Origin: Marivita geojedonensis
GTDB lineage: Bacteria > Pseudomonadota > Alphaproteobacteria > Rhodobacterales > Rhodobacteraceae
Assembly (NCBI RefSeq): GCF_002115805.1
Contig: NZ_JFKC01000002.1
Span: 310,001 to 374,000 of the forward strand
Length of the DNA stretch: 64,000 bases
Direction: 5' to 3'
Below are positions 27,724 through 45,499 of this stretch, in pieces; position 1 is the stretch's first letter; every line of letters starts with the position of its first letter. The notes beneath the pieces were generated by a model that was given only the letters and a program-made list of their open reading frames with translations, did no database searches and had not been told where the DNA came from. The position numbers and the translations under genes are program-made.

Positions 27724-27734
27724 GATTTACAGTG

Positions 27735-27746
27735 GTACACATGTAC
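27735..27746. promoter_or_regulatory. Candidate RpiR operator GTACA-CA-TGTAC
   Basis: Perfect 5-bp half-sites separated by 2 bp in the 70-bp spacer between the divergent RpiR and flavoprotein genes. A second, imperfect palindrome (TGATACATTTGTGTCA) overlaps the RpiR start. Placement fits autoregulation and control of both operons; no binding data are available. Confidence 0.4.
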
Positions 27747-27793
27747 GCACATGCTGTCGAGCAGTTTTGCGACTCGTTTGAAGGATCAGCGAC

Positions 27794-30241: not shown

Positions 30242-31386
30242 CCGTTCTTGCGACCCCTGTTCCAATCACAGCTAGAACCGACACACGTATCAGGACCGTG
30301 TCTCTGTGGCATGTGCCTTTGACCAGCCATACGGCCTACTACATGGCCGATGGCAAGACCTGCGATACGGTGGAAACCGTTGTGATCGCAGTAGAGACCA
30401 ATTCGGGTCTGACCGGGTGGGGGGAGGTCTGTCCGATCCCGCATTACCTGCCGGCCTATGCGCGGGGCGTGGAACCGGCTTTGCTGGAACTGGCCCCGGT
30501 GATCCTTGGGGCCGATCCTGTGGGTGTGGGAGCGACGATGGCGGCGGCGGAGTCCTGGTTGCCAGGCCATGTCTATGCGAAGTCGGCGCTCGACATTGCG
30601 CTGTGGGACATCACCGGTCAGGTGGCGGGGCTGCCGCTGCATGCGCTGCTTGGCGGGCGCCGACAGGCAGACTTGCCGCTCTATCACTCCATCACGTGTA
30701 TCGACCCGGACGAAATGTCCCGTATCGCTCGGGATGCGCAGGCGCAGGGAATTACACAGTTTCAGGCAAAGCTGGGTGCATCGGGTGACTGGCAGACGGA
30801 TGTGGAACGGCTGACCAAGGTGCGTGAAGCCGTTGGGCCGGGACCTCTGGTCTATGGCGACTGGAACTGCGGAGCGACGTCGCTGGACGCGACCCGCGTC
30901 GGCCGGGCCGTTTCCCATCTGGATGTGATGCTCGAACAACCCTGTGCCACGCTTGACGATTGCGCTCGCGTGCGCGCGGCAACGGGTCTGCCGATGAAAC
31001 TCGACGAGTTGGCGCATGACACGGCCAGCCTTCTCGAGGCCCATCGCCTCGGTATCATGGATGCGGTTGCACTGAAGCTGTCGAAATTCGGCGGACTCTC
31101 GGCGACACGCCGGGCGCGCGATCTGTGCCTGCATCTCGGGTCAAAGATGTGCATCGAGGACACGTGGGGAAGCGACATCACAACCGCCGCTCTGCTGCAT
31201 CTCGGGGCTGCGACCGAGCCTGCGCGCGTTCTCAATGTCTGCGACCTGTCCGGCTATGTTGCACCGCGGCTGGCTCCGGACGCCCCGACGCGCGCAAACG
31301 GACGTATCGCGCCGCCCGAAGGTCCGGGCCTTGGTGTCGTTGTGGACCGCGTCGCGCTTGGTAAGCCTGACCTGATCCTGGAGTAA
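30238..31386 (+). CDS. Enolase-superfamily racemase/epimerase (MLE subgroup, proline-betaine epimerase-like)
   Basis: A 382-residue protein of the mandelate racemase/muconate lactonizing group. The base Lys is in QFQAKLGAS; metal ligands are Asp in VYGDWNCG, Glu in VMLEQPCATLDD and Asp in MKLDELAHD; the second Lys is in ALKLSKFGG. The motif LEQPC and the EDTWGSDI segment resemble hydroxyproline-betaine 2-epimerase (HpbD) as I remember it, which fits neighbouring Rieske and flavoprotein demethylases. An initial 18 residues before the TIM-barrel capping domain are unusual. Coupled by ATGA to the flavoprotein gene. Confidence 0.85.
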   Translation: MTVLATPVPITARTDTRIRTVSLWHVPLTSHTAYYMADGKTCDTVETVVIAVETNSGLTGWGEVCPIPHYLPAYARGVEPALLELAPVILGADPVGVGATMAAAESWLPGHVYAKSALDIALWDITGQVAGLPLHALLGGRRQADLPLYHSITCIDPDEMSRIARDAQAQGITQFQAKLGASGDWQTDVERLTKVREAVGPGPLVYGDWNCGATSLDATRVGRAVSHLDVMLEQPCATLDDCARVRAATGLPMKLDELAHDTASLLEAHRLGIMDAVALKLSKFGGLSATRRARDLCLHLGSKMCIEDTWGSDITTAALLHLGAATEPARVLNVCDLSGYVAPRLAPDAPTRANGRIAPPEGPGLGVVVDRVALGKPDLILE

Positions 31387-31390
31387 ACCA

Positions 31391-32680
31391 ATGAACCGCA
31401 TCCACAGCCAAGACGATTGGATCGCACGTGCCCGCGCTGTGCTGCCTGCTGGCGGATTCGGCAATTTCGACCCGGGCGTTGTCATCGCCCGGGGTCAGGG
31501 TAGCCGCATTTGGGATGAAGACGGTCGGGAATACGTGGACTACCTGATCGGTTCCGGCCCGATGCTTCTTGGGCACGGCCACCCCGAAGTATTGGAAGCT
31601 GTTCTTGAACAATTGCCCAATGGCCTGACATTCTTTGCCAACAATGCCAAAGGCATCGAGTTGGCCGAGGCCATCGTCGAGGCTGTCCCTTGCTGCGAAC
31701 AGGTGCGTTTCGTCGGGTCAGGTGGTGAGGCGGACATGTATGCGCTCAGGCTGGCACGAGCATATACGGGCAAATCCAAGATCCTGAAATTTGAAGGGGG
31801 ATATCACGGCATGAGCGCCGAAGCGCAGATGTCGCTTGCCCCTTCCCGCCAGGTGAACTTCCCGACACCCGTGCCAGACAGTGCGGGTATCCCTCAGGGC
31901 GTCGCGGACGAAATGCTGATCGCGCCATTCAATGATCTGGATGCGGTGGCCGGACTTTTGGATGAGCACACGGATGTCGCGGCCATCATCGTCGAGCCGC
32001 TCCAGCGCATCATTCCCGCGCAACCCGGTTTCCTGCAAGGGCTGCGCGACCTGTGTGATCGCCACGGGCTTCTTCTGATCTTCGACGAGATTGTCACCGG
32101 TTTCCGTCTTGCATATGGCGGCGCACAGGAACGGTACGGGGTGGTTCCCGATATCTGCACTTTGGGCAAAATAATCGGCGGTGGATTTCCCCTTGCCGCG
32201 CTTGGTGCCAGTGCAGAGATCATGGCACATTTCGACAAAGCGATTGTCGGCGCCGACAAGTGGCTGATGCAGCTCGGAACCCTGTCCGGGAATCCGGTCG
32301 CGGCGGCTGCGGGCCTCAAAACAATGGAAATCCTGCGACGCTCGCAGCAGTATGAGCGGCTGCGCCAGCTTGGGCAGACCCTGATGAAGATGCAGTCTTC
32401 CGCATTATCGGATCAAGGCATATCGCATCGCATATGTGGCGACCCGACGCTGTTCGACGTGTATTTCACCACGCAGCACCCAACGGATTACCGCAACGCA
32501 CGCCATTCACACCCGCGCTTTGGAGAGGTGTGGAATTCAGCTCTACGCGGGCAGGGAGTCTTCAAAAGCCCCGGGAAGATGTACCCCTCTCTGTCCTTGA
32601 CGACGGCGGACCTCGATCAGACGGAACAGGCGTTTCTGGTCGCTGCACAAGCGGTCGCTCAAGTTTCCTCAACTGCCTGA
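31391..32680 (+). CDS. Class III aminotransferase, glutamate-1-semialdehyde aminomutase-like
   Basis: A 429-residue PLP enzyme of fold type I. The Schiff-base Lys is in CTLGKIIGGGFPLAALG and the PLP-ring Asp in LLIFDEIVTGFRL. Gene length and sequence resemble the HemL group, but the position as last gene of a betaine catabolic operon (4 bp after the epimerase) suggests a catabolic omega-type aminotransferase. Likely acts on an amino or keto acid made by the upstream enzymes; I cannot tell which. Confidence 0.88.
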   Translation: MNRIHSQDDWIARARAVLPAGGFGNFDPGVVIARGQGSRIWDEDGREYVDYLIGSGPMLLGHGHPEVLEAVLEQLPNGLTFFANNAKGIELAEAIVEAVPCCEQVRFVGSGGEADMYALRLARAYTGKSKILKFEGGYHGMSAEAQMSLAPSRQVNFPTPVPDSAGIPQGVADEMLIAPFNDLDAVAGLLDEHTDVAAIIVEPLQRIIPAQPGFLQGLRDLCDRHGLLLIFDEIVTGFRLAYGGAQERYGVVPDICTLGKIIGGGFPLAALGASAEIMAHFDKAIVGADKWLMQLGTLSGNPVAAAAGLKTMEILRRSQQYERLRQLGQTLMKMQSSALSDQGISHRICGDPTLFDVYFTTQHPTDYRNARHSHPRFGEVWNSALRGQGVFKSPGKMYPSLSLTTADLDQTEQAFLVAAQAVAQVSSTA

Positions 32681-32825: not shown

Positions 32826-33701
32826 CTAGAACGCGCCGGATTTCCGTCTTGAAATCACGACAAGCATCAGGATCGTCACCAGATAGGGAAGGCTCGACAA
32901 GACCTGCGACGGCAGCCCGACCCCGATGGCCTGGGCCGTCAGTTCGCCGAGGGACAGAATTCCGAAGAGCAGAGCGCCAAAGGCGACACGTCCGGTTTGC
33001 CATGTCCCGAACACCACGAGCGCGAGTGCAATCCACCCGCGGCCGGCAATCATCCCGTCGGCCCAAAGCGGTGTGTAAACGGTCGAGGCATAGGCCCCAG
33101 CAACGCCACACATCGCACCGCCAAATGCCGCGGCGGCAAGACGTATCAGGACGACCGGGTATCCGATGGCGCGGGCTGCCTCAGCGTTTTCGCCCACCGC
33201 GGCAATGATGAGGCCTAGTTTTGTTCGGTTGAGGGTCCACCACAAACCGAAAGTGCCGATTACTGCCAGCCAGACCACAATGTCCTGTGTCAGCACCGTT
33301 GGACCTATCACGGGGATATCGGACAGCACTGGAATGTCGATCTTTGGCAGTCCTTTGATGGTCAGGCTCTCGTATGTCTTCCCGAACAGGGCTGACAGGC
33401 CCAGCCCCAAAACACCAATGGCCAGTCCAGAAGCAACTTCGTTGGCGCGCACGGCAATCACCAGAACGGCAAAAAGCATTGCTATCAACGTACTCACCGC
33501 TGCCGCAGCCACGAACCCGACAACATGAGATCCGGTGTGGTAAACGCATATGAAAGCGATCGCGGCACCGATGGCCATCATGCCTTCCAACCCGAGGTTC
33601 AGCAGCCCGGTCTTTTCAACGACCATCTCTCCGAGAGCGGCCAGCAGCAGCGGAAGGGATGCGGCGAGCGTACCCGCCAGAAGAAACTCCAGCCCGCTCA
33701 T
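32826..33701 (-). CDS. ABC transporter permease 2, BMP/nucleoside family
   Basis: About 291 residues and eight or more helices, in the branched-permease (YufQ/PnrE-like) family: LLAALGEMVVEKTGLLNLGLEGMMAIGA. The ATG at 33701 overlaps the preceding permease stop as ATGA; the much longer upstream opening lies inside that gene. It is the last gene of the eight-gene operon and forms the transmembrane heterodimer with the next entry, importing a purine or nucleoside type ligand. Confidence 0.88.
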   Translation of the reverse strand: MSGLEFLLAGTLAASLPLLLAALGEMVVEKTGLLNLGLEGMMAIGAAIAFICVYHTGSHVVGFVAAAAVSTLIAMLFAVLVIAVRANEVASGLAIGVLGLGLSALFGKTYESLTIKGLPKIDIPVLSDIPVIGPTVLTQDIVVWLAVIGTFGLWWTLNRTKLGLIIAAVGENAEAARAIGYPVVLIRLAAAAFGGAMCGVAGAYASTVYTPLWADGMIAGRGWIALALVVFGTWQTGRVAFGALLFGILSLGELTAQAIGVGLPSQVLSSLPYLVTILMLVVISRRKSGAF

Positions 33702-34768
33702 GCCGGCACCTTTCGGCTGAACTCGATCCGGTAGCGGATCAGTGTGAAGGTCAGCAGGTAGAAGAACAGAAGCAATCCCTGGAACACCTCGACCGCTGCA
33801 ACCGGGAGCCTTGCGGACACGGTAGCGCTGTCGCCACCGATATAGATGACCGATATCAGGAAGCTGGACGCGATGATCCCGAGGGGGTTCAAACCGCCCA
33901 CATAGGCTACGATGATCGCGGCGTAGCCGTAGCCAGACGTGACCGAGCGTTGGAGTTGTCCCAGTGGCCCCGCAACCTCGCTCGCCCCCGCGATCCCAGC
34001 CGCCAATCCGCCCAGGCCAAGACCCAACCACACCATGCGTGGGGCGGAAAACCCGGCATAGAGTGCGGCGCGTGGTGCCAACCCCGCAGTGCGCAACTGG
34101 TAGCCGCGGAAGTGGTGCTGCATCATCAGGTAGGCAAAAAGGCTCGCCAGCAGCGAGAAGATGAGCGAGATATTCGTTCGGGTCCCATCGAACAGGATCG
34201 GCAAAAGCGCATTGTCCGGGAACATCACAGTCTGCGGGAAGTTGAACCCACGTGGATCCTTCCACGGACCGAGCAGCAGGTAGTTCAGGATCTGCACGGC
34301 GATCAGCGCCATCATGAGTGTGACAAGAATCTCCGACGCACCGAACCGGGTGCGCAAGGCTGCTGCGATCAAAGCATAGACCGTACCGCCCAACGCCCCG
34401 AAGGCGATCATCGCGGGCAGCATCATCGGGAAATCCCCGTCAGGGAAATACACCGGCAGCGCGGAGGCGCAAAGCGCACCGACGATGAACTGGCCCTCTG
34501 CGCCAATGTTGAAAACGTTGGCGCGGAACCCGATGGCCAGCCCTTGCGCGATCAGGAGCAGCGGCGCCATCTTCAAGAGTACTTCGGAAAAGCTGTACCA
34601 ACTCAGGAACGGCTTGAGCAGCAGGGCATGTAATGCCGCGCCAGCGTCTTTGCCCAATGCCGCGAACAGGACGAGGCTCGCCAGACAGGTGAAGACCAGC
34701 GCCAGAACGGGCGCGGTGAACATCGCAAGTCGCGAGGCGGAGTCGCGGCGGATCAGTCGGAGTTTCAC
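33698..34768 (-). CDS. ABC transporter permease 1, BMP/nucleoside family
   Basis: About 356 residues from GTG 34768, which overlaps the ATPase stop as GTGA; the longer in-frame opening lies inside the ATPase gene. It resembles YufP-type permeases (PLLLIAQGLAIGFRANVFNIGAEGQFIVGA) with about nine helices. Partner of the permease ending at 32826. Both are coupled to the ATPase and receptor genes upstream. Confidence 0.88.
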   Translation of the reverse strand: MKLRLIRRDSASRLAMFTAPVLALVFTCLASLVLFAALGKDAGAALHALLLKPFLSWYSFSEVLLKMAPLLLIAQGLAIGFRANVFNIGAEGQFIVGALCASALPVYFPDGDFPMMLPAMIAFGALGGTVYALIAAALRTRFGASEILVTLMMALIAVQILNYLLLGPWKDPRGFNFPQTVMFPDNALLPILFDGTRTNISLIFSLLASLFAYLMMQHHFRGYQLRTAGLAPRAALYAGFSAPRMVWLGLGLGGLAAGIAGASEVAGPLGQLQRSVTSGYGYAAIIVAYVGGLNPLGIIASSFLISVIYIGGDSATVSARLPVAAVEVFQGLLLFFYLLTFTLIRYRIEFSRKVPA

Positions 34769-36264
34769 GTCGCAGCCCCAATCATGTAGCGCCCGATTTC
34801 CTGCGGGCTGGTCTCGGCCGCGTCCAGGGCGGACGACAGGTGCCCTTTGTGAAGCACATGCAGCTTGCTGCACATCTCGAACAACTCGTCCATTTCCTCG
34901 GAAATCACGAGGATCGCACAGCCCTGATCGCGCATGTCGAGCAGACGCCTGCGAATGGCGGTCGCGGCCCCGATGTCGACCCCCCATGTGGGTTGCGACA
35001 CCAGCATCACGTCCGGGTTCAGCATGATCTCGCGGCCCAGAATGAATTTCTGCAGATTGCCACCCGACATCGCGCCGGCTTCGGCATCCGGTCCCGGGGT
35101 CCGCACATCGAACGCGTCGATGCATTCGCGCGTAAAGGCGCGCTCCACGCTGCGCCGAATGAACCCGCGCGACAACATATTGCGACTGTGGGCGGTCAGA
35201 AGGCTGTTGTCGGCTAACGACATCTCGGGCACCGCGCCTCGCCCAAGCCGTTCTTCCGGCACAAAAGCAAAGCCCAGCTTGCGCCGCGCCATCGGGCCAA
35301 GGTGCCCGACCTTCTTGCCCATGATCTCGATCATGCCAGGTTCCTGCGCCCGGGTCTCACCGGAAATCAGCGCCGCCAGTTCCTGCTGCCCGTTGCCAGA
35401 AATCCCTGCGATCCCGACAATCTCGCCGCTGCGAAGTTTGAGGTCGATGCCCTCAAGCGTCGTCCCGAACCGACTGGCCCGCGGATGGCTCAGCGCGTTA
35501 AGGCGCAGCCGTTCTTCCCTCGGCGGGCGCGGCGCGGCATGTGCTACGTTCGGCATCTCGCGCCCGATCATCAATTGCGCCAGAGACCGCGCATCATGCT
35601 CGCGCGGATCTACGCGGCCCGTTACCTCACCGCTGCGCAGGACACTTGCGGTGTCGCACAGCTCGCGGATCTCATCCAGCTTGTGCGAAATGAACAGGAT
35701 CGCCATCCCCTCGGCCTGCAGCTTGCGCAAGGTCTCGAACAGGCGACGCACGCTTTGCGGCGGCAGCACGGAGGTCGGTTCGTCAAGGATCAAGAGCTTC
35801 GGATTGAGCAGCAGACAACGGATGATCTCGACCCGCTGGCGCTCGCCCACCGACAGACGATGCACCATCGCGTGGGGATCGACAGAAAGCCCGAACTGGT
35901 CCCCCAGATCACTTATCTTCTGCGCCAGGTCCGCCGGTTTGCCGGGGATCATCAGCGACACGTTCTGCACGACGCTCAGCGTTTCGAAAAGCGAGAAATG
36001 CTGGAACACCATCCCGATGCCAAGCGCCTGGGCGTCGGAGGGCCGGGCAAGATGCACCTCCTGCCCGTTCCAGTAGATATGCCCCGCATCCGGCTGTTCG
36101 ACGCCGTAGATGAGCTTCATCAGGGTGGATTTGCCCGCCCCGTTTTCACCCAGCACGGCATGGATCGACCCCGAATGCACCTCGAGGTCGATCTCCTTGT
36201 TGGCCTGAACGGTGCCGTAGCGCTTGGAGACCTTTGCAAGCCTCAGCAGCGCAGGCTGGCTCAC
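34765..36264 (-). CDS. ABC transporter dual ATP-binding protein, BMP/nucleoside family
   Basis: A 499-residue tandem ATPase of the YufO/RbsA type. The first domain has Walker A GENGAGKSTL (about 36-45), signature LSVGERQR and Walker B LLILDEPTSV. The second (from about 255) has the degenerate Walker A GISGNGQQEL and signature MSGGNLQK, the usual pattern of this family. The GTG at 36264 overlaps the receptor stop as GTGA. Sugar, nucleoside or purine transporters share this architecture; the operon context points to a purine. Confidence 0.9.
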   Translation of the reverse strand: MSQPALLRLAKVSKRYGTVQANKEIDLEVHSGSIHAVLGENGAGKSTLMKLIYGVEQPDAGHIYWNGQEVHLARPSDAQALGIGMVFQHFSLFETLSVVQNVSLMIPGKPADLAQKISDLGDQFGLSVDPHAMVHRLSVGERQRVEIIRCLLLNPKLLILDEPTSVLPPQSVRRLFETLRKLQAEGMAILFISHKLDEIRELCDTASVLRSGEVTGRVDPREHDARSLAQLMIGREMPNVAHAAPRPPREERLRLNALSHPRASRFGTTLEGIDLKLRSGEIVGIAGISGNGQQELAALISGETRAQEPGMIEIMGKKVGHLGPMARRKLGFAFVPEERLGRGAVPEMSLADNSLLTAHSRNMLSRGFIRRSVERAFTRECIDAFDVRTPGPDAEAGAMSGGNLQKFILGREIMLNPDVMLVSQPTWGVDIGAATAIRRRLLDMRDQGCAILVISEEMDELFEMCSKLHVLHKGHLSSALDAAETSPQEIGRYMIGAAT

Positions 36265-37355
36265 GACGGCAGCGGCGTGGTCACGCCCGCAACATGCCAG
36301 TCCATGCCGATGATTTCGCCATCCGTCATCGCCACGCCATCCGCCACACGCTCGGTGCCGGACTGGTCGGTGAGCGGACCTTTGAAGACCACGAAGTCAC
36401 CCGCCTCGATCTCGGCTTCCTTGGCTTTGATCTGTTCGATCATGTCGGCCGGGATGTCCGGGTTCCAGTCGGCAGTGAAGACCACATCGTCTTCCATGCC
36501 CAGCCAGTAGTTCGCACCGGGGAATTCGCCCGCCACGTGCCCATCGACCAGACGCTTGAAATGCGGACCCCAATCGGTGCCGACGACACCGAGGTACTTG
36601 GAGGGCGCGTATTTCTTCATTGAGGAGTTGAGGTTGTAGGCATAGACCCCGGCCTCTTCCGCCACAGCGATCACCGATGGCGTGTCCTGCGCGTTCGAGA
36701 AAAGAATATCCACGTCCTGCGAAATCAGAGCCTTGGCGGCTTCCTGTTCCGACGCGGGGTCGAACCAGCTGTTCACCCAGACGACGCTCATGGTGATTTC
36801 GGGATCAACCGACAGCGCGCCCAGCATGAAAGCGTTGATCGAGGTGATCAGTTCCGGGATCGCGAACGCGCCGACACAGCCGATCTTCTTGGTCTTGGTC
36901 AACGACGCGGCGGCCATCCCCATCAGGTAGGTGCCCTGCCAGTATTTCGCGGTGAAGGGGGCGAAGTTCGGCTCGACCATGAAGCCCGAGGCATGGATGA
37001 TCGACACATCGCGGTTGCGCTTGGCGATCTGGATGCCGCCGTTCTGGTAGCCGAAGGAGCCCAGCAGCAGAACCTCGTTGCCCTCGGACACCAACCCGTT
37101 GGCGATGCGGTCGGCATCCGGACCTTCCATGATGTTTTCCAGCACCGTCACCTCAAGCTTGTCGCCATAGGCTTCCTTCACGGTGTTCACGCCTTCCATG
37201 AGCGTGTGCGACCAACCCACATCCGCGATGGGCGAGGGCAGCACAACGCCCATCTTGAGAACGTCCTGCGCATGTGCGCGCATCGGCAGAGCGAGCGCGG
37301 TTGTGGCGGCAAGCGTGCCTTTCAGGAAACTGCGGCGTTTGAGTGTGTCAGACAT
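36261..37355 (-). CDS. BMP-family ABC transporter substrate-binding protein (Tat signal)
   Basis: A 364-residue periplasmic receptor in the Bmp/PnrA family, whose members bind nucleosides or purines. A twin-arginine signal is visible (KRRSFLKGTLAATTALALPMRAHA, cleavage about residue 29). Family segments include VLPSPIADVGWSHTLMEGV and VGTDWGPHFKRLVDGHVAG. It overlaps the amidohydrolase stop by 8 bp and starts the four transporter genes. With a purine-deaminase-like enzyme and an NdmC-like oxygenase in the same operon, a methylated purine is a good candidate ligand. Confidence 0.88.
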   Translation of the reverse strand: MSDTLKRRSFLKGTLAATTALALPMRAHAQDVLKMGVVLPSPIADVGWSHTLMEGVNTVKEAYGDKLEVTVLENIMEGPDADRIANGLVSEGNEVLLLGSFGYQNGGIQIAKRNRDVSIIHASGFMVEPNFAPFTAKYWQGTYLMGMAAASLTKTKKIGCVGAFAIPELITSINAFMLGALSVDPEITMSVVWVNSWFDPASEQEAAKALISQDVDILFSNAQDTPSVIAVAEEAGVYAYNLNSSMKKYAPSKYLGVVGTDWGPHFKRLVDGHVAGEFPGANYWLGMEDDVVFTADWNPDIPADMIEQIKAKEAEIEAGDFVVFKGPLTDQSGTERVADGVAMTDGEIIGMDWHVAGVTTPLPS

Positions 37356-38745
37356 GGTTATCCCCGTTGGTTGTGTTTGGCAGAATGGTGTGAAGTGTCT
37401 CTTCGGCGGCGGCGAACAGTGCGCCTTCGTCGATCCCCGGAAACGCGCCTTTGTGCCAGACGATGCGACCGTTGATCATGGTAAGGTCCGTTGGCGCACC
37501 GACACCGACCTTGGCCAGAAGGCTGATCGGATCATGGCGCGTGCCCACGAAATCAAGCTTGCGCGTGTCGATGGCGAAGAGGTCCGCGGCCATGCCGGGG
37601 CGCAATGCGCCGATGTCTTTGCGCCCAAGCAGCGAGGCCCCGCCTTCGGTCGCATAGTGCAGGAACCGTCCGGGCACTGGCACGCCGTCCTGTCGGGTCG
37701 AGGCGACAAGGCATTGCAGCATGTACCCGGAATGGATGCAGTGCATCAGATTCGAATTGTCGTTCGACGCCGCCCCGTCGCAGCCCAGTCCGACGCGGAC
37801 CCCCAGCGTATCCATCGCCGGGATGTCTGTGACTTCGGCCCCGACCAGATATACCGGCTCAGGACAATGCGAAACGCCGGTGCCGGAGGTCGCCAGCTTG
37901 CCCAATTCTTCGCGCGTCAGTTCCCAGCCATGGGCATAGAACACGTCCGGCCCGGCAAAGCCGATCTCTTCGCAGTAATCAACAGTCCGCTTTCCATGGA
38001 CCTGTTCAATCACCGGGCTTTCCCCTTCGCCCACATGGCTGTGCAGGATCACGCCCTTGTCGCGCGCAAGCGACACGGACTGCTCGAATGTCTCGCGGTA
38101 GCAGTTGACCGGCTGGCAGGGAGCCACTGCCACCTGTCGCATCGAAAAGGGTGCCGGATCGTGGAACGCGTCGATGGCACGTTCGCAGGCCGAGATGAAT
38201 TCGTCGGTCGACTCCAGCATCTCGTCTGGGATCGTGCTGCCCTCGGATTTTGGCAGCGTGTTGCCGCCCCGGCCCGCGTGAAAGCGCATGCCCAAGAGGT
38301 CTGCCGCCTCGAATTGCCGGTCGATGATGTGAGACCCGGCATGGCGCGGGAAGCAGTATTGGTGGTCAAACGCAGAGGTGCAGCCGTGTTTGATCAGTTC
38401 GGCCATCGCGACGACAGAGCTGTGATAGAAACAGTCCTCGGTCAGACGAGAGAAGATCGGGTAGATGCGGTCGAGCCATTCGATCACCGAATAGCGCGTC
38501 CAGTCCAGTTCGGCCCGGTTGCGGACGAAGCATTGGAAGAAATGGTGGTGTGTATTGACGAGGCCCGGATAGATGAAGTGCCCGGTGGCTTCGATGACCT
38601 CGGTCCCGTCGGGCGCCTGACGGGCCAGGTCGGGTCCAATGGCCGTGATTGCACCGTTCTCGCAAAGAATGTCTTGGTGCCGCAGAACCGGAGCGCTGGC
38701 CGAGGTGACGATCGCCTCGCAGTTCTTGAGCAGGATCGCGGTCAT
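37348..38745 (-). CDS. Amidohydrolase, 8-oxoguanine deaminase / chlorohydrolase-like
   Basis: A 465-residue metal-dependent deaminase of the cog0402 group. The metal and catalytic residues are visible in order: NTHHHFFQ (about 65-72), HSHVGEGE (about 235), HGWEL (about 270) and GCDGAASNDNSN (about 320). The overall pattern is that of 8-oxoguanine deaminases, which hydrolyse the purine C2 amino group. It is coupled to the GST gene by ATGA and to the receptor gene by overlap. Within this operon I infer deamination of a methylated guanine to the matching xanthine, but 8-oxoguanine or other purines fit the family equally well. Confidence 0.82.
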   Translation of the reverse strand: MTAILLKNCEAIVTSASAPVLRHQDILCENGAITAIGPDLARQAPDGTEVIEATGHFIYPGLVNTHHHFFQCFVRNRAELDWTRYSVIEWLDRIYPIFSRLTEDCFYHSSVVAMAELIKHGCTSAFDHQYCFPRHAGSHIIDRQFEAADLLGMRFHAGRGGNTLPKSEGSTIPDEMLESTDEFISACERAIDAFHDPAPFSMRQVAVAPCQPVNCYRETFEQSVSLARDKGVILHSHVGEGESPVIEQVHGKRTVDYCEEIGFAGPDVFYAHGWELTREELGKLATSGTGVSHCPEPVYLVGAEVTDIPAMDTLGVRVGLGCDGAASNDNSNLMHCIHSGYMLQCLVASTRQDGVPVPGRFLHYATEGGASLLGRKDIGALRPGMAADLFAIDTRKLDFVGTRHDPISLLAKVGVGAPTDLTMINGRIVWHKGAFPGIDEGALFAAAEETLHTILPNTTNGDNHV

Positions 38746-39356
38746 GCCGGGTGGGCCAGTTCATGCAGACGGTGGATGCCAGGCATTTCGATGAAGCCCG
38801 GCAGCGATCGGACTGCCCGCATCCAGAGCCGGATCGAAGGATAGGGATCGAGGCTAAAGCCGCCATCAGGCGCAAGAGCCGTGTTCGGGAAGCAAGCGAT
38901 ATCCGCGATGGTCGGTGCCTTGCCGGTCAAGAAGATCAGACCGTCAAAGCGCTGTTCCGTCAGATGCGCCTCGAGCTTGCGCAGAGCCGTCACACCTGCC
39001 GCGCGGGCTGTGTCGATGTCAGCCTCGTACCCGATCACGTCATGAAGCCGAGCGAGACCAAGGCTTTCGTTCAGGTCCGAAGCAAATGCCAGCCAGCGGT
39101 CATCGTCGGGGCTCCGCCATTCGGGATGGTCCATGGTCAGGTGCCGCAGGATGTCGGCGCTGTCGGTCAGTACAGTTTCGCCGTCTTGCAGGATCGGGAG
39201 AGTACCCTTGGGGTTCAGCGCCAGCATTTCGGGCGACTTGTGTTCGCGGGCCGGGTGGAAGTTCACCGCCCGCAGGATCAGCGGCGTACCGAGCAGCGCC
39301 GCCATCAGGCGGACTTTGTAGCAACTGGCGCTCAGAACGTAGTCGTAAAGGATCAT
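38742..39356 (-). CDS. Glutathione S-transferase-like protein (possible NdmE-type structural subunit)
   Basis: A 204-residue GST with thioredoxin-like N-terminal domain (SASCYKVRLMAALL, cis-Pro in GTLPILQDG, DSADILRHL) and helical C-terminal domain. It lies between, and is coupled by ATGA to, the NdmC-like oxygenase gene and the deaminase gene. In Pseudomonas putida CBB5 a GST homologue, NdmE, is required structurally for the N7-demethylase complex NdmCDE. The same gene pairing here supports that role; ordinary GST activity is the alternative. Confidence 0.82.
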   Translation of the reverse strand: MILYDYVLSASCYKVRLMAALLGTPLILRAVNFHPAREHKSPEMLALNPKGTLPILQDGETVLTDSADILRHLTMDHPEWRSPDDDRWLAFASDLNESLGLARLHDVIGYEADIDTARAAGVTALRKLEAHLTEQRFDGLIFLTGKAPTIADIACFPNTALAPDGGFSLDPYPSIRLWMRAVRSLPGFIEMPGIHRLHELAHPA

Positions 39357-40189
39357 GCCGCCACCAATTGCGCGCCGTAGGTGTAACCGATCTTCTTGAG
39401 CCAGCGGCGATAGGCGACCGAGGTCATGTCTGCCTGTGTCGGCACCTCCATCCCCGGATCGAGCGGCAGTTTGCGCGGGATCTGGTTTTCGAGGATCGAG
39501 CGGTCCTGCATGAAGATCAGCTGCTGGAAAGAGACCATCTCGGACATGGTCGACTCGTCATCATAGAGCGCCATCCACGGCCAGACCTCGCACCATTCGT
39601 CGGTCAGAGGCTGCACGAAAAGCGTGATTATGTCCCATTCGCCCGGTCGGGGCGGACAGGTCTTGTAGAGTACCGAACAGGTCGGCGCGGGCACGCGGTA
39701 CATGTATTCTGTGGTGATCCCGCCCGCAGCGGATTTCGCGGCCTGCGGTTGGTAGAATTTCACCTTGGTCGCCCAGACCTCGTCCACCTCTTCGCGGATC
39801 TTGACGTCGTAACGGTCCACCTCGGTATGTGGCTCGGCTCCGAGAATGTCGGTATGCACAAACGGGAAATGCGCGATGTCGAGGAAGTTCTCGACCGCAC
39901 GCAGGGGCGAGCATTTGACCTTGACCGACCCCACATCCACCAGGCGACGACCGGGGCTGTCGGCTTCTGGGATGGTGAAGAGGTCACGGTTGGGCTGGCC
40001 GGGGCTGGTCCAGAGATGGCCGAACCGTTCGACGGTCGGTAGTGCTTTTCCGGTCGCGTCCTTGACCCAGCAAGTGCCATCCTTCCGGCCCAAAGTGATT
40101 TTTTTACCAAGCAGTAAAGTTTCGCGCGGGCCGTCTATGCCCGAGATCATTGCGACCGGATACCAATGGTTTTCAATGGCTGTATTCAT
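39353..40189 (-). CDS. Rieske-less oxygenase catalytic subunit, resembles 7-methylxanthine N7-demethylase NdmC
   Basis: A 278-residue catalytic chain of a Rieske oxygenase. The start (NHWYPVAMISG, then LLLGKKITLGRKDG) matches the beginning of an oxygenase Rieske domain, but the cluster-binding CxH and CxxH segments are missing and the chain passes directly to the catalytic domain. The iron site is visible in ENFLDIAHFPFVHTDILGAE (about 105-124). The C-terminal segments ILENQIPRKLPLDP and YRRWLKKIGYTYGAQ match what I remember of NdmC, which also lacks a Rieske domain. It needs a Rieske partner, supplied by the overlapping upstream gene. Probable reaction: oxidative N-demethylation releasing formaldehyde. 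Confidence 0.85.
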   Translation of the reverse strand: MNTAIENHWYPVAMISGIDGPRETLLLGKKITLGRKDGTCWVKDATGKALPTVERFGHLWTSPGQPNRDLFTIPEADSPGRRLVDVGSVKVKCSPLRAVENFLDIAHFPFVHTDILGAEPHTEVDRYDVKIREEVDEVWATKVKFYQPQAAKSAAGGITTEYMYRVPAPTCSVLYKTCPPRPGEWDIITLFVQPLTDEWCEVWPWMALYDDESTMSEMVSFQQLIFMQDRSILENQIPRKLPLDPGMEVPTQADMTSVAYRRWLKKIGYTYGAQLVAA

Positions 40190-40788
40190 GCCGGAACCCC
40201 TTCAAGCGTTGCCCGCAAGTCCTCCACCCAGCGTGACACGGCTTTTGGATCGGCGTCCGGCGATGCAAGAACATGCGCCATTGTCAGAGTGTCTGTGCAG
40301 GGTTGGAGCGCAAGAACCGTGTCGTGGTCCGAGACCACTGCGACGGTCGGGGCGGATCCTGCGCCGAAATGCGCCGCGACGTTTTCCGCAGACAGGGCTA
40401 TCGGCACCGAGCGGACCGGTACGCGCCCGCCCAGTTCGGGAAGCGGTTGGTCCGTGGCTTCCAGCGACACCCAGATCACACCGCCTGCCTCGGTGCAGGA
40501 GTAGGTCGGCACGCAGATCGTATCGGGTGGCGTCAACTTGGGGTGGGCGGGAATGTAGTCGCATGAGCCGGCTTCGTTGTATTGCCAGCCGTGGTAGATA
40601 CAGGCGAGTGTATTGCCCCGGACAAAACCGTGCGACAGGCGCATGCCGCGATGCGGACAGCGGTCAGACCAAGCGTGATAACTGCCGGAAGGCGCACACC
40701 AGACAGCAAGCTCTGTATCTGCGAGGCGGCTGGGGATCACGATGCCTGGCGGAACGTCCTTCTTCAATCCAACAGCAATCCAGCTCAT
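40186..40788 (-). CDS. Stand-alone Rieske [2Fe-2S] protein, partner of the NdmC-like subunit
   Basis: A 200-residue protein with a Rieske domain at about residues 5-110: ligands Cys44-His46 in CPHRGMRLSHG and Cys63-His66 in CIYHGWQYN. The cluster motifs are of the oxygenase type (CPHRG/CxYHGWQ), not ferredoxin type. It is followed by an 80-residue extension (ENVAAHFGAGSAP... EDLRATLEGVPA) with no iron-site motif. It is the first gene of the eight-gene operon and overlaps the NdmC-like gene as ATGA. It presumably delivers electrons to that subunit, replacing the extra Rieske domain that reductase NdmD carries in Pseudomonas. The reductase itself is not in the window. Confidence 0.85.
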   Translation of the reverse strand: MSWIAVGLKKDVPPGIVIPSRLADTELAVWCAPSGSYHAWSDRCPHRGMRLSHGFVRGNTLACIYHGWQYNEAGSCDYIPAHPKLTPPDTICVPTYSCTEAGGVIWVSLEATDQPLPELGGRVPVRSVPIALSAENVAAHFGAGSAPTVAVVSDHDTVLALQPCTDTLTMAHVLASPDADPKAVSRWVEDLRATLEGVPA

Positions 40789-40914
40789 AACCGCTCCGCG
40801 AAAGTCGGGGCAAGTAAGGCAGAGCGGACGTCTCTAATCAATAACGGCAGTTTGCAAATCAGTGCCAGCACCGAGATATTCGCACATTTTTTTGGCTGTT
40901 AGACTATTTTGTAG

Positions 40915-41181
40915 TCACTTCGCTTCGGCTGCGCACTCAACGGTTGTAATTTCGATGGTGTCAACCAGCACGCTTTGCGGGCCAAGGCTGGCTCCAAGAG
41001 CAAGCGCGTGAAGCATCTCTTCCGCGCCACGGGCACTGATTTCCAAGCCTGATGGCACAGGTTTTGTAGCGATGCCGGATAGCCCCAACTTATGCGCGTG
41101 ATGCGCGATCCATCCGGGGAAGTCGCTGCTGTGCACGTCGCCCGTCAGATGAATTGTTGCCAAGTGCGTGCCTGGTGTCAT
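40915..41181 (-). CDS. Acylphosphatase-like small protein lacking catalytic residues
   Basis: An 88-residue protein whose ending (GLSGIATKPVPSGLEISARGAEE... VDTIEITTVE) follows the acylphosphatase fold. The catalytic loop, normally GxVQGVGFR, reads GDVHSSDFP (14-22), so the Arg is Pro22, and the essential Asn of the following strand is replaced by Lys (ATK). It therefore should not hydrolyse acyl phosphates. It sits 163 bp downstream of the flavoprotein gene on the same strand and 126 bp upstream of the Rieske operon. A binding or scaffolding role is possible; the weak similarity leaves the fold assignment tentative. Confidence 0.55.
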   Translation of the reverse strand: MTPGTHLATIHLTGDVHSSDFPGWIAHHAHKLGLSGIATKPVPSGLEISARGAEEMLHALALGASLGPQSVLVDTIEITTVECAAEAK

Positions 41182-41344
41182 GGTGTGGTGTCCAGCCGGA
41201 TTTTCCTGTTCCTGTCAGGATTGCGGGAACGGACCTGTTTCGCAAGGTGCTGGACCAGTGGCGATGCATTTCCTGCAAAACTCCGGATGGGCCGCGATGC
41301 CGGACATGGCACCCAATACGTGGCACATGGCAACGAGAGACCCG

Positions 41345-43780
41345 CTAGACCCGCAGGTTCGTGTGGCCCGGATCATAAGGCGACGGCGGAATAACCTTCG
41401 CGGGCACCCTGGCTCCGCATAGATCCAGTTCGATCACCTGACCAACCTCGGAAATCCCGGGGTCAACAAAGGCATAGGCGAGGTTCATTCCGACCCGATA
41501 CCCCCACGCGCCGGACGTTACGGTTCCCACAACCTTTCCCTTCTCCATAAGAGAGGCACCACCATGTGCGGGCGCGCGGGTCGATGCTATGTCAAGAGTG
41601 ACAAGTTTTCTGCGTGGCCCCTCAAGCTGCCGTCGGCACAGCCCACCTTTGCCGATGAAATCACCTTTCTCGAGTTTCACGAACCGGTCCAGCCCGGTTT
41701 CGAAAGGGTCGAACTCGGTCAGAAGGTCCGCTTTCCAGTGAAGAAAGCCTTTTTCCATCCGCATCGACTCGATTGCCCGGGCGCCGAACAGGTGCATCCC
41801 GTAGCTCTGTCCGGCTTCCCGCAGCGCCAGAAATGCGGCGTACAGAGAGGCGTTCGGGACATGGATTTCATACGCCAATTCACCAGAGAAGCTGACGCTC
41901 ATCACAGTGGCAGGCGCAAATCCAACAAAACACTCCCGGACCGAAAGCCATGGAAAGGCTTCTGCTGACCAATCGGCGCGACTCACGGCCTGCATGACCT
42001 CCCGCGATCTGGGTCCAGCGAGAACGAGGATGGTCTGGTCATTTGTCAGGCTGTTGAGATGAACATCTTCGTCCTGCCTGCGATGTGTGCTCAACCAATC
42101 AAGGTCATGCCATTCTGCGGCTGCGGCCGATCCGAACCAGACCCTTGCCGGCCCTCGGTCCGATGCGGGGATGTTGGCAACCGTTGCTTCGGCTTTGAGC
42201 ATTCCGTGATGGTTGAGCAGGTAGCCAAGTCCAACCCTGCCGTCACGCTTGGTGACCGCTCCACACATCATTCGATCAAGAAACGCATGCCTGTCCGCGC
42301 CTGTGATCTCGATCCGGTTGAAGCCATTGACCTCGGTAAGGCCAACATTGGTCTGCACATTACGGACCTCGGACGCGATCAGGTCAAAGGTTTCGTCAAA
42401 ATCGAAACTCAGGCTTGGGTGAAAATCCGGCGAAGGCTTGATGTAGTCGACCCGTTCCCAGCCATTGACCACGGTGAACTCGGCCCCTTCTGCTGCCAGC
42501 ACCGGCGTCAGAGGAGTGGTCTTGGCGGGCCGGCCTGCAGGGCGGTGTTCGTGCGGGAAATGGAACCGAAATTCGTTTTGGTAGTCTTCAATGGCTTTCC
42601 GGGAGGTCAGTTCGACATTCGCGTGACCGGTGAACCGGCGGGGATCAAGGCACCAGGTGTCATAGCAGGCTTCGCCATGAACGATCTGCTGGGCGAGAAG
42701 CCAACCATGGCCACCACCTTCGCCGACGCCGGCGCGCAGGCCGATGATGCAGAACGCATTGCGTTTGCCCGGTATCGGGCCGACCAATGGCGCGCCATCG
42801 ATTGTGTAGGTGATCGGACCGTTTACAACCCGTTTGATGCCGACCTCAGCCAAGGCGGGCATTCTTGAAAATGCACCTTCGAGCACGTCCATGACGCGAT
42901 CCAGATCGTCCGGGCAGAGATCATTGGCAAATGACGGGCTAATGCCGTCCATGCCCCAGGTCTTGCAGCCCTGTTCGTAGAAGCCCACCAAAAGCCCGTT
43001 CTTTTCCTGCCGCGCATAGTAGTCCGAGATCGGGCAGCGCAGCAGCGGCATGCGGTGACCTGCCTCAATGATTGCGGGGATGTCCTCGGTGACGAAATAC
43101 TGGTGTTCCATCGACGCAACCGGATGATGGGCACCCATCATCGCGGCGACCTCGTTCACACGGTAACCGCAGGCGTTCACCACTATGTCCGCGTCGATGT
43201 TGCCTTGTGTGGTTTCGACCGTCCAAGTGTCGTCAGAGTGCTGCGTGAGGCCCGTCACAGGGGTGTGGCGGTAAACCTCTGCTCCGGCCTTGCGTGCGTG
43301 GAAGGCAAGCGCCTGACAGAGCTGTGCGGGGTCAATGTCGCCATCTTCACCATCCCACAGTCCGCCCAGCAGGTTTTCTGTCGAAATGAGCGGATGGCGC
43401 CGCGCACATTCCTCCGCGTCTATGATCTCGAACTCGACGCCCATCCCCCGCGCCATCGACGAGAAATGACGGTAGCCCTGCATTTGCGCTTCGGTGTTGG
43501 CCAGACGGATCCCACCGTCGCCGTGGTGATAACCAACCGGGTATTCCGGGTCATCGCGCAGCTTTTTGTAGAGCGCGATGGAATGGGATTTCAGGCCGAC
43601 CATTGTCTGGTTCATCCCGAAATTCGTCACCTGTGCTGCGGAATGCCATGTGGTTCCCGATGTCAGCTCATCCCGTTCGATGAGCACCACATCGCTCCAT
43701 CCCTCCTGTGTCAGGTGATAGAGCGTCGAGCACCCGGCGATGCCGCCACCGATGACAACGACCCTGGTCCGCGATTTCAT
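41345..43780 (-). CDS. FAD-dependent oxidoreductase with GcvT domain, dimethylglycine dehydrogenase-like
   Basis: An 811-residue paralogue of the flavoprotein at 27794. N-terminal FAD fold VVVIGGGIAGCSTLYHLTQEGW (about 6-27) and the His-containing GTTWHSAAQVTNFG segment (about 42-55) suit covalent FAD. C-terminal GcvT domain from about 440. Such enzymes demethylate N-methylated amines with transfer of the C1 unit to folate. It starts divergently from the MttB-family gene at 43968; together they suggest consecutive demethylation of a quaternary or tertiary amine. The substrate is unknown. Confidence 0.9.
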   Translation of the reverse strand: MKSRTRVVVIGGGIAGCSTLYHLTQEGWSDVVLIERDELTSGTTWHSAAQVTNFGMNQTMVGLKSHSIALYKKLRDDPEYPVGYHHGDGGIRLANTEAQMQGYRHFSSMARGMGVEFEIIDAEECARRHPLISTENLLGGLWDGEDGDIDPAQLCQALAFHARKAGAEVYRHTPVTGLTQHSDDTWTVETTQGNIDADIVVNACGYRVNEVAAMMGAHHPVASMEHQYFVTEDIPAIIEAGHRMPLLRCPISDYYARQEKNGLLVGFYEQGCKTWGMDGISPSFANDLCPDDLDRVMDVLEGAFSRMPALAEVGIKRVVNGPITYTIDGAPLVGPIPGKRNAFCIIGLRAGVGEGGGHGWLLAQQIVHGEACYDTWCLDPRRFTGHANVELTSRKAIEDYQNEFRFHFPHEHRPAGRPAKTTPLTPVLAAEGAEFTVVNGWERVDYIKPSPDFHPSLSFDFDETFDLIASEVRNVQTNVGLTEVNGFNRIEITGADRHAFLDRMMCGAVTKRDGRVGLGYLLNHHGMLKAEATVANIPASDRGPARVWFGSAAAAEWHDLDWLSTHRRQDEDVHLNSLTNDQTILVLAGPRSREVMQAVSRADWSAEAFPWLSVRECFVGFAPATVMSVSFSGELAYEIHVPNASLYAAFLALREAGQSYGMHLFGARAIESMRMEKGFLHWKADLLTEFDPFETGLDRFVKLEKGDFIGKGGLCRRQLEGPRRKLVTLDIASTRAPAHGGASLMEKGKVVGTVTSGAWGYRVGMNLAYAFVDPGISEVGQVIELDLCGARVPAKVIPPSPYDPGHTNLRV

Positions 43781-43967
43781 GGCTGGTCTCCGATTGACTC
43801 CATCAGAACAGCAGGAAAACTTTTTGTTCCGTGCGCAACTGAATCCAAAGAGTTTCGAATAAACAGAATTTATTTTTCGATAAAATCAGAAAAACCAAAT
43901 GCGTATTGATGTCGTGATCGATTCAGAGCGTGATCCGGTTGCACAACACATCGAGGACGGTTTTCTC

Positions 43968-45491
43968 GTGAGCGGACAATTACGACGCGCAGGTCGGAAA
44001 GAACGTATCGCGCTGCGCAAGGCGAAACCGGCATTTGATCCTTGTCCGCCAGGACAAATCGGCGGGGCTTACAAGCCGCTGAGCGAAGCCGAGTTGAACG
44101 CGATTTTTGATACAGCACTCAGACTTCTGGAAACGCTCGGATTGGGTGAGGTTCCCGAAAGGCTGCGCAGGGACCTTGAGGCGGTTGGAGCAAAAAGTAA
44201 CGCCAATGGGCGCGTTTGTTTTCCCGCGCGACTGGTGCATCAGGCTATCGACCAATCGGCGAAAACCTTTGCCCTTCATGGTCGCGACAGTGCGCGTTCG
44301 ATTGAAGTGGGGCTCAACCGCGTTCATTTCGGAACCGGTGGGGCGGCGGTGCAGACGCTTGATCTGGAGACGCGCAGATACCGTCCATCGACCTTGCGAG
44401 ATCTGCACGATTTCACCCGGTTGCAGGACACTCTGACCAATGTCAGCTGGTACACGCGATGCTGTGTCGCGACGGACGTCCCGGACAACTACGATCTTGA
44501 TGTCAACACGGCCTATGCTCTGCTGAGGAACACGACGAAACCGGTTGCGACCTCGTTCACGCTGGCATCGCACGTGGCTCCGATTGTCGAAATGCTCGAC
44601 ATTGCGGCCGGCGGGCAAGGAAGATTCTCCGAACGTCCGTTTCTAAAAGCGCATATCAGCCCGATCATTTCGCCCATGCGATTTGGTGAGGATGCGGTTG
44701 AGGTCGTGTATGAGTGTATCCGCCATAATATTCCCATGTCCTGCATCACTGCTGCGCAGGCGGGGGCAACGGCCCCAGCGACCATGGCGGGATTTCTTGC
44801 TCAATCCCTGGCCGAGACCCTGGCAAGCCTCGTGATGGTGCATGCGATCCAGCCAGGCTTTCCGATGGTGTTTTCGAACTGGCCTCTTGTGGTTGATCTG
44901 CGCACAGGAGCCTTTGCCGGAGGCAGCGGGGAAACGGCCCTTCTCAATGCAGCGTCGGCACAGGTGTCGAACTGGTTGGGGCTTCCGTCAGGCGTTGCCT
45001 GTTCGATGACCGACGCCAAAGCGATTGACGCGCAATATGGAATGGAAAAGGGGCTTACGTCTTTGGCGGCGGCACTCGCGGGTGGAAACCTGATCTACGA
45101 AAGCTCTGGAATGACGGCGTCACTGTTGGGTGCGAGCTTTGAAGCCTTCGTGCTGGATGACGAGATGCATTCGAACACCTACCGCATCCTCAGAGGGATC
45201 GAGGTTTCCGAGGAAAACCTCGGGTATGAAGCCATTGTAGAGTCGGTTTTGGGGGAGGGACATTTCCTTGGTGGGTTCCACACCTACGCTGCGATGGAAC
45301 GTGATTATTTCTATCCGTCACTTGCGGATCGCTCAGAACCGCGGAGTTGGGCAGAAGGTGGGGCAAAGGACGCCTGGGACAGAGCACATTCGAAGGTGAG
45401 AGACCTTCTTGCAACTCATAATCCCGAGTACCTGACGCCGGAACAGGATGCCGAAATCCGGACGCGCTTCAACATTCTTTATCCAGCGTGA
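43968..45491 (+). CDS. Trimethylamine methyltransferase (MttB) family protein, non-pyrrolysine type
   Basis: A corrinoid-dependent methyltransferase homologue of about 507 residues. GTG 43968 is chosen because the protein then begins with the basic segment and FDPCPPGQIGGAYKPL usual for this family and GAGGA lies about 10 bases before; ATG 43899 is an in-frame alternative adding 23 residues. The TIM-barrel body is full length with no internal TAG, so it lacks pyrrolysine and is of the glycine-betaine/other quaternary amine type rather than trimethylamine MttB. No corrinoid protein gene is adjacent. It is divergent from a DMGDH-like gene, supporting methylated-amine catabolism. Confidence 0.88.
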   Translation: MSGQLRRAGRKERIALRKAKPAFDPCPPGQIGGAYKPLSEAELNAIFDTALRLLETLGLGEVPERLRRDLEAVGAKSNANGRVCFPARLVHQAIDQSAKTFALHGRDSARSIEVGLNRVHFGTGGAAVQTLDLETRRYRPSTLRDLHDFTRLQDTLTNVSWYTRCCVATDVPDNYDLDVNTAYALLRNTTKPVATSFTLASHVAPIVEMLDIAAGGQGRFSERPFLKAHISPIISPMRFGEDAVEVVYECIRHNIPMSCITAAQAGATAPATMAGFLAQSLAETLASLVMVHAIQPGFPMVFSNWPLVVDLRTGAFAGGSGETALLNAASAQVSNWLGLPSGVACSMTDAKAIDAQYGMEKGLTSLAAALAGGNLIYESSGMTASLLGASFEAFVLDDEMHSNTYRILRGIEVSEENLGYEAIVESVLGEGHFLGGFHTYAAMERDYFYPSLADRSEPRSWAEGGAKDAWDRAHSKVRDLLATHNPEYLTPEQDAEIRTRFNILYPA

Positions 45492-45499
45492 CGCTCCTC

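Follow-up and report, generated by a model that had tools for sequence, protein, structure and literature searches.

A conserved eight-gene operon of Marivita geojedonensis that probably imports and degrades a methylated guanine

The N7-methyl group of purines is known to be removed by NdmCDE of Pseudomonas putida CBB5, reported as an N7-specific demethylase (PMC4408171). Methylation at N2 of guanine is dealt with by NdmH, which converts N2,N2-dimethylguanine to xanthine and dimethylamine, and a 150-3600 fold preference for the N2,N2-dimethylated base, relative to guanine, is reported for the published NdmH enzymes (PMC13054789). The NdmH activity was first reported in March 2026, its authors describe its physiological context as still being investigated, and the words Rieske and operon are absent from the main text of that paper (PMC13054789). 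As for uptake, the receptor AtzT is reported to bind guanine at 110 nM, with a KD of at least 620 μM given for tested nucleobases other than guanine and adenine (PMC6834077). In the open-licence literature, none of the matches listed joins catabolism of dimethyl- or trimethylguanine, or of 7-methylguanine, with a Rieske enzyme, and no paper was found there that combines 7-methylguanine, a deaminase and 7-methylxanthine.

The eight-gene locus and its importer

The window, a stretch of 64,000 nucleotides of the M. geojedonensis contig NZ_JFKC01000002.1, includes eight intact ORFs on the minus strand between positions 32826 and 40788. In the preliminary description these were read as an operon for uptake, deamination and N7-demethylation of a methylated purine. 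The extents, strand and order of the eight genes given there were confirmed by ORF and Pfam analysis, and the coordinates bear out that every junction is an overlap of 4 or 8 bp (4, 4, 4, 8, 4, 4 and 4 bp, successively). As for riboswitches, no Rfam family reached the gathering score across the window, and no Rfam match up to E 1 was obtained at 40600-41500.

The last four genes, all on the minus strand, encode an ABC transporter that consists of a BMP-family substrate-binding protein (36261..37355, 364 aa; Bmp, PF02608, E 6.8e-37), a dual-domain ATPase with a GTG start (34765..36264, 499 aa; ABC_tran, PF00005, twice in one protein), and two permeases (33698..34768, 356 aa, with a GTG start at 34768, and 32826..33701, 291 aa; BPD_transp_2, PF02653, in each). 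The BMP receptor is 35% identical to AtzT and 37% identical to the Brucella protein 3s99, and its TAT signal scores 22.0 bits, just below the cut-off of 22.7. The AtzT pocket residues Ser97, Phe98, Glu165 and Trp194 are kept, Tyr45 is replaced by Trp and Asn220 by Asp, both as in 3s99, and a one-residue insertion blurs the position of Asn218. An AtzT-like purine pocket is predicted, and the earlier proposal of a purine-type BMP importer linked to a demethylase module is supported.

The split oxygenase and the amidohydrolase

The first three genes, also on the minus strand, encode the putative N-demethylase. The Rieske [2Fe-2S] subunit (40186..40788, 200 aa; Pfam Rieske, E 2.3e-21) is free-standing, with a shrunken catalytic domain and no reductase domain found by Pfam, and the catalytic non-heme iron subunit (39353..40189, 278 aa; VanA_C, E 5e-21) has lost the Rieske domain and its cluster, the iron ligands being kept. 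The division of the oxygenase into separately encoded parts is seen both by sequence and in predicted structure, and according to the models, each iron subunit would correspond to a complete Rieske oxygenase in which the domain supplied by the other has shrunk. The gene adjoining that of the catalytic subunit encodes a GST-like protein (38742..39356, 204 aa; GST_N/GST_C, PF13417/PF13410), a presumed NdmE-like scaffold that is 42% identical to the GST of a Klebsiella NdmC/D-like cluster. No reductase gene is present in the operon, and the best candidate for an NdmD-like reductase elsewhere in the genome, encoded on a different contig, shows a 33% match.

The phylogeny of the oxygenase was examined in a tree of 72 sequences picked from the retrieved loci and 6 outgroup sequences, with longer fusion sequences trimmed or omitted. 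The window oxygenase falls within the NdmC family, which stands apart from the HpxD and NdmA sequences (100/99), the two HpxD sequences falling with the outgroup (100/99). CBB5 NdmC was not identified among the loci and is represented in this tree by stand-ins, namely homologues whose clusters also include NdmA-like, NCS2 and TIM-barrel genes; SxtT-type enzymes are not part of the tree. The window clade lies outside these NdmC-type sequences, on a branch with mostly free-Rieske relatives; this clade (100/99) includes, besides 12 operon sequences, three from loci without a close NdmH (L053, L054 and L055). Its nearest neighbours (88/86) include a Komagataeibacter/Paracoccus versutus trio adjoining NdmA homologues, one of which scores 559 bits to PDB NdmA, and this indicates a methylxanthine setting for the nearest relatives of the oxygenase. 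The solved structures nearest by sequence, SxtDIOX and SxtT, are hydroxylases, not demethylases, and the PDB matches include no NdmC chain. The assignment of the oxygenase, Rieske protein and GST to an NdmC/NdmE-like N-demethylase module is supported, and the check proposed in the preliminary description, whether the oxygenase would group with non-purine demethylases, placed it with the NdmC family and away from HpxD and NdmA.

The fourth gene (37348..38745, minus strand, 465 aa; Amidohydro_1, E 9.8e-47) encodes an amidohydrolase of the NdmH/AtzB type, predicted from its residues to be an N2-methylated guanine hydrolase. Compared by published residue numbers, it has all 13 NdmH residues (Q74, W85, W93, Y98, Y133, N165, C213, Q214, N217, E243, H275, P300 and D326 in poNdmH numbering) at a constant offset of -3, and the spacing of the CQNN site, taken from the published numbering of poNdmH, hsNdmH and rbNdmH, is the same in the window protein. 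The same residues are found in 20 of 20 operon amidohydrolases at the positions present, four of these sequences ending before the last two. They are also complete in 28 of the 29 sequences from a second bacterial family, the remaining one being cut and three of the 29 being genes already among the 20. In a tree of the amidohydrolases, the operon enzymes form a clade (99/95) that is sister to AtzB (100/100) and apart from the 8-oxoguanine deaminases. AtzB, a hydroxyatrazine ethylaminohydrolase, is the closest named relative of the window enzyme, with 57% identity.

The amidohydrolase had been described as 8-oxoguanine-deaminase-like, a likeness that proved to be distant, the match to 8-oxoguanine deaminase NF006055 being 370.4 bits, below the curated cut-off of 532. 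PDB chain 7ww2, an 8-oxoguanine deaminase according to its depositors, belongs to the same amidohydrolase branch and is 38% identical to the window protein, but departs from it at W85, N165, Q214, N217 and P300 and has M, C, S and S at the four specificity sites. On the strength of the NCBIfam cut-off and the residues, 8-oxoguanine deamination was dismissed as the main activity.

Conservation and linkage of the gene set

Loci were retrieved by searching with either the oxygenase or the amidohydrolase; gene starts in them were set by script, and N-termini may be off. Around a close amidohydrolase, the same eight-gene set was found in 16 of the 19 fully read loci (the window, L036, L043, L046-L052, L056, L183-L186 and L190), the other three (L187, L220 and L221) being without the other genes. 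Among 295 genomes of the family of the window, taken as Rhodobacteraceae, a close amidohydrolase (E up to 1e-110) is encoded by nine, the window included, and in 9/9 it sits inside the complete eight-gene set, which argues that the set is not a chance assembly. The gene order, which the preliminary description proposed to examine across Rhodobacteraceae, is conserved, as is the link of the oxygenase with the deaminase and transporter.

The second family (297 genomes) is taken as Rhizobiaceae, as its amidohydrolases nest with those of Rhizobium plasmids. An NdmH-type amidohydrolase is encoded by 29 of these genomes; genes for the GST and oxygenase directly adjoin it in 26, a contig end cuts one locus, and they are absent in two, where NdmH is separate from the oxygenase/Rieske/GST trio. 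Plasmids of Rhizobiaceae also carry the set, e.g. pRL10 of Rhizobium johnstonii 3841 and a plasmid of Shinella zoogloeoides; six plasmid records were chosen among those whose oxygenase had not been listed, and near-copies in plasmid records inflate the match totals. Sinorhizobium numidicum has a lone damaged NdmH copy.

A close NdmH is missing from 14 of the 23 oxygenase-bearing genomes in the family of the window. Among the 104 oxygenase-holding loci of at least 12 kb (a count that excludes L044, anything shorter than 12 kb and the short loci L066-L081), a GST is present in 102 and a close NdmH in 10. The oxygenase was found in 24 of 398 genomes in a sample of the phylum. The amidohydrolase, at 1e-90, was found in 2 of 385 genomes in a sample of the class, these being the window and one relative of about 39-41% identity with residues as in PDB chain 7ww2.

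Candidate substrates and comparison with known systems

The general reading of the locus, import and breakdown of a methylated purine, holds. The operon probably imports a methylated guanine and degrades it to xanthine via removal of the C2 substituent and ring N-demethylation. Judging by homology, the BMP-type ABC transporter would take up the free base. Given its 13 NdmH residues and its position in the tree, the amidohydrolase would then release dimethylamine, methylamine or ammonia from C2, and the product would be xanthine or an N-methylxanthine. From its family, the three-piece Rieske N-demethylase would strip the ring N-methyl group as formaldehyde to give xanthine, with electrons for the oxygenase supplied by a reductase encoded elsewhere, and xanthine would be passed on by the xanthine dehydrogenase of the host. 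The latter, of the molybdenum type, is clear in the genome (1215 bits against a cut-off of 849.5), and a PF11927 protein of the host (145 bits) may serve dimethylamine use.

An operon that combines an N2-methylamine hydrolase with an NdmC-family demethylase suggests a guanine with methyl groups both on N2 and on a ring nitrogen. As a single candidate, N2,N2,7-trimethylguanine, known as the cap base of small nuclear RNAs in eukaryotes, is perhaps the likeliest. A fuller account can be drawn, in which the pathway is dedicated to N2,N2,7-trimethylguanine, NdmH removes the N2,N2-dimethylamino group and the three-subunit oxygenase the N7-methyl group, the oxygenase arose by complementary shrinkage of two ordinary Rieske oxygenase copies, plant-associated and other alphaproteobacteria eat eukaryotic RNA caps, and AtzB descends from the hydrolase line of the operon. 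Taken with all of its parts, this account is tentative and has only a modest chance of being correct.

Since NdmH alone takes N2,N2-dimethylguanine to xanthine, the oxygenase may act on another compound. The operon might then scavenge methylated purines broadly, NdmH acting on N2-methylated guanines and the Rieske N-demethylase on N-methylxanthines, with a shared importer and xanthine as the common product. This would suit an NdmH that reaches xanthine without a demethylase (PMC13054789) and a trio that often occurs without NdmH (close NdmH in 10/104 loci, as above). However, the tight linkage (9/9 and 26/29) and the 4-bp overlaps are better suited to a single linear pathway, and methylxanthines may be poor ligands of a guanine-type pocket, as the AtzT KD of at least 620 μM suggests (PMC6834077); broad scavenging is accordingly judged unlikely.

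For plain 7-methylguanine, the substrate put forward in the preliminary description, import would be followed by deamination to 7-methylxanthine and N7-demethylation to xanthine. This base is common in RNA decay, and the NdmC-family oxygenase with its GST would fit such a route, as would the reported N7 specificity of NdmCDE (PMC4408171). Yet it is not the best single guess for an amidohydrolase of the NdmH/AtzB type because the published NdmH members favour the N2,N2-dimethylated base 150-3600 fold (PMC13054789), and the specificity residues are those of NdmH rather than of chain 7ww2. The 7-methylguanine route is thus doubtful.

Two further readings are highly improbable. In molybdenum-free guanine catabolism, the amidohydrolase would convert guanine to xanthine and an HpxD-like enzyme would convert xanthine to urate. 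HpxD is a Rieske enzyme, and the catalytic subunit shares 29% identity with a Pantoea dispersa protein annotated as HpxD, but xanthine hydroxylation of this kind is put low given the oxygenase tree, in which HpxD lies outside the NdmC family (100/99). A molybdenum-type xanthine dehydrogenase is, moreover, already encoded by the genome, and NdmH enzymes are reported to be poor on guanine (PMC13054789). Degradation of alkylamino-triazine-like or other non-purine compounds, comparable to the handling of hydroxyatrazine by AtzB and AtzT, could be argued from the 57% identity to AtzB and the AtzT-like receptor, but is put low because the four changes that make AtzB from NdmH (SSII) are absent, the sites staying CQNN in the operon sequences examined, and sequences 66% identical across two bacterial families suggest an operon far older than herbicides.

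With a methylated guanine as the probable substrate, the operon is a candidate physiological setting for NdmH, and its presence in R. johnstonii 3841 makes the idea testable there. Since the sister group of AtzB belongs to this conserved operon, together with a purine receptor resembling AtzT, the origin of an atrazine-degrading enzyme becomes testable in a natural pathway. The split oxygenase, with each iron subunit apparently keeping a shrunken copy of the domain of the other, offers a system for studying the disassembly of such enzymes.

AtzB (WP_011117160.1 of pADP-1, residue numbers checked) shows the published I170, S218, S219 and I222, and thus has I, S, S and I at the four specificity sites where the operon enzymes have N, C, Q and N. 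Its gene is surrounded by insertion sequences, a TetR gene and an NCS2 gene, unlike the operon setting. The likeness to NdmCDE claimed in the preliminary description stands for the NdmC-family oxygenase and the GST but not for the reductase, no NdmD-like reductase being encoded in the operon, nor for a place of the window clade among the NdmC-type sequences. A catalytic subunit without a Rieske cluster, a Rieske domain on another chain, and a GST-like partner are shared with NdmCDE of P. putida CBB5 as reported (PMC4408171), and the oxygenase is of one family with sequences of Klebsiella, Pseudomonas, Stutzerimonas and Burkholderiaceae taken as NdmC-type from their clusters. However, whereas the Rieske domain of NdmD is described as fused to an NADH reductase and NdmCDE as linked to NdmA/NdmB, the Rieske protein of the window is a free subunit and the gene linked to its module encodes a guanine-type hydrolase.

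The eight-gene operon and its conservation

The eight minus-strand genes at 32826-40788, in a genome of 4.3 Mb, are best explained by the breakdown to xanthine of a guanine methylated at N2 and at a ring nitrogen, the substrate itself being a candidate. In transcription order they encode a Rieske protein, an oxygenase catalytic protein, a GST-like protein, an amidohydrolase, a BMP receptor, a dual ATPase and two permeases. The reading frames are clean and successive genes overlap by 4, 4, 4, 8, 4, 4 and 4 bp, bearing out the overlapping operon of the preliminary description.

Of 295 genomes sampled from the window's family, taken to be Rhodobacteraceae as in the preliminary description, 23 have relatives of the catalytic subunit (E <= 1e-10), as do 24 of 398 in a phylum-wide sample (E <= 1e-20). 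A close amidohydrolase (66-100% identity, E <= 1e-110) occurs in nine of the 295, and the complete eight-gene set surrounds it in all nine; the gene order proposed earlier for comparison across Rhodobacteraceae is conserved in these genomes. Of 297 genomes sampled from a second family, f10 (treated here as Rhizobiaceae), 29 carry a close amidohydrolase, which GST and oxygenase genes directly adjoin in 26; one contig starts inside the gene, and in two genomes of one genus it stands alone. Both of these carry NdmC-family oxygenases elsewhere, and the stand-alone gene checked by Pfam adjoins genes for a solute-binding protein of family 5 and the corresponding permease. All eight genes are present in five of six plasmid records chosen for having the amidohydrolase; the sixth, from Sinorhizobium numidicum, has only this gene, its N-terminal part no longer matching. 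Counting Shinella and R. johnstonii 3841 pRL10, the complete set was present in 16 of the 19 loci that were read from end to end. Three NdmH-type genes outside the operon, one of them damaged, count against the proposed pathway.

An Rfam search matched no family, either in the window at gathering score or in the operon's upstream region (40600-41500) at E up to 1. Upstream, at 41345-46474, lie genes for an FAD/GCV_T enzyme (41345-43780, 556 bp from the operon's first gene), a LysR regulator and a methyltransferase of the MttB family (354 bits to PF06253); they could serve methylamines. The adjoining cluster at 24304-32680, with a full-length Rieske oxygenase (25751-26839), an RpiR-type regulator, an FAD/GCV_T enzyme, a mandelate-racemase-like enzyme and a class III aminotransferase, resembles a betaine-type catabolic island. 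Two Rhizobium plasmids and Shinella each carry a small acylphosphatase gene immediately before the operon (L036:10919-11185, L043:10934-11203, L184:6467-6718; L numbers denote homologous loci).

The amidohydrolase

The likeness to 8-oxoguanine deaminase first assigned to the amidohydrolase falls below the cut-off of the NCBIfam model (370 against 532 bits). In the tree, the operon proteins form one clade (99/95), sister to the atrazine-pathway enzyme AtzB (100/100) and apart from chain 7ww2, named 8-oxoguanine deaminase. The identification of AtzB rests on a protein accession shared with pADP-1 and on the published residues S218, S219, I170 and I222. In a plasmid search, identities fell stepwise: 128 of 172 records lay at 60-80%, and among the 60 matches listed, four atrazine-type plasmid records lay at 54-56% and the next below at no more than 39%, mostly annotated as 8-oxoguanine deaminase.

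Drexler and colleagues showed three AtzB relatives to be N2,N2-dimethylguanine hydrolases (NdmH), naming thirteen residues by number (PMC13054789). As compared by published residue numbers rather than sequences, the window protein has all 13, each shifted by 3 positions (Q71, W82, W90, Y95, Y130, N162, C210, Q211, N214, E240, H272, P297, D323). AtzB, offset by 5 from the published poNdmH, keeps nine and carries the four changes. The four specificity sites are NdmH-type in 20 operon rows of the tree and in 29 f10 rows, three genes being common to both sets. A word search of the main text of PMC13054789 returned no Rieske, operon or 7-methylguanine.

At the specificity sites, an AtzB-type protein of Aminobacter sp. 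SR38 (L189:8959-10416), which shares 99% identity with AtzB, shows I, C, G, I in place of I, S, S, I. Sister clusters (L045, L060, L097, L136, L146, L154 and others) combine a split oxygenase and BMP transporter with a different amidohydrolase having the 8-oxoguanine-deaminase-type residues of 7ww2; some carry a second or third amidohydrolase.

The oxygenase family

The oxygenase had been called NdmC-like, and in a 78-row tree the catalytic subunit indeed shares one family with rows taken as NdmC-type, HpxD and NdmA rows lying apart (100/99). On one side (81/80), which includes Klebsiella, Pseudomonas and Paraburkholderia caffeinitolerans clusters, the Rieske domain is mostly fused to a reductase, as in NdmD; relatives on the other (83/79) mostly have a free Rieske protein. 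Both deep branches have no more than moderate support, and a free-Rieske pair, the first trios (oxygenase, Rieske, GST) of L037 and L158, falls outside both. A firm clade of 15 (100/99) contains the 12 NdmH-operon rows; its remaining three loci have the trio without a close NdmH. Neighbours of this clade (88/86) include a trio that adjoins NdmA homologues in Paracoccus versutus and on a Komagataeibacter plasmid from kombucha; one of these homologues scores 559 bits to PDB NdmA.

Those two loci (L037:6923-18988 and L158) have nine proteins in common, 94-99% alike (NdmA homologues, two split trios and a reductase), which points to a methylxanthine pathway having been transferred recently. In a further arrangement, on a Variovorax paradoxus plasmid (L042:11241-14388), a free Rieske protein is followed by a fusion of the catalytic domain with an NAD-binding/Fer2 reductase and then by a GST. 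On Sinorhizobium meliloti pSymA (L039:11962-16222), two consecutive NdmC-family catalytic subunits with one common Rieske-reductase and GST are divergent from a BMP transporter.

Across the 104 oxygenase loci that span 12 kb or more, a Rieske gene is present in 103, GST in 102, a BMP receptor in 71, an NdmD-type reductase in 53 and a close NdmH in 10. That most lack a close NdmH counts against the proposed breakdown of a doubly methylated guanine, as do the solved structures nearest the oxygenase by sequence, which are hydroxylases.

Candidate substrate and receptor

Because a predicted N2-methylamine hydrolase, a predicted ring N-demethylase and a guanine-type receptor are encoded in one tight operon, the candidate substrate is a guanine with methyl groups at N2 and at a ring nitrogen; the two enzymes would degrade it to xanthine, and the host genome encodes a clear xanthine dehydrogenase. 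Plain 7-methylguanine, the substrate proposed in the preliminary description, is a possible alternative, as are two separate substrates for hydrolase and oxygenase. For a doubly methylated guanine, a 3-methyl group is disfavoured because NdmH chemistry protonates N3 (PMC13054789), and the one studied oxygenase-family member acts on N7 (NdmCDE, PMC4408171). Our best guess is N2,N2,7-trimethylguanine, which satisfies both constraints. Eukaryotes produce this compound as an RNA cap.

The receptor shares 37% identity with Brucella 3s99, modelled with adenine, and 35% with AtzT, a receptor that binds guanine with an affinity of 110 nM (PMC6834077). Operon receptors keep Ser97, Phe98, Glu165 and Trp194; position 45 is Trp, position 220 is Asp, and one residue is inserted next to position 218. 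In AtzT, Asn218 approaches the exocyclic amine (PMC6834077). As judged from sequence, these pocket changes would be compatible with a guanine altered at the amino group.
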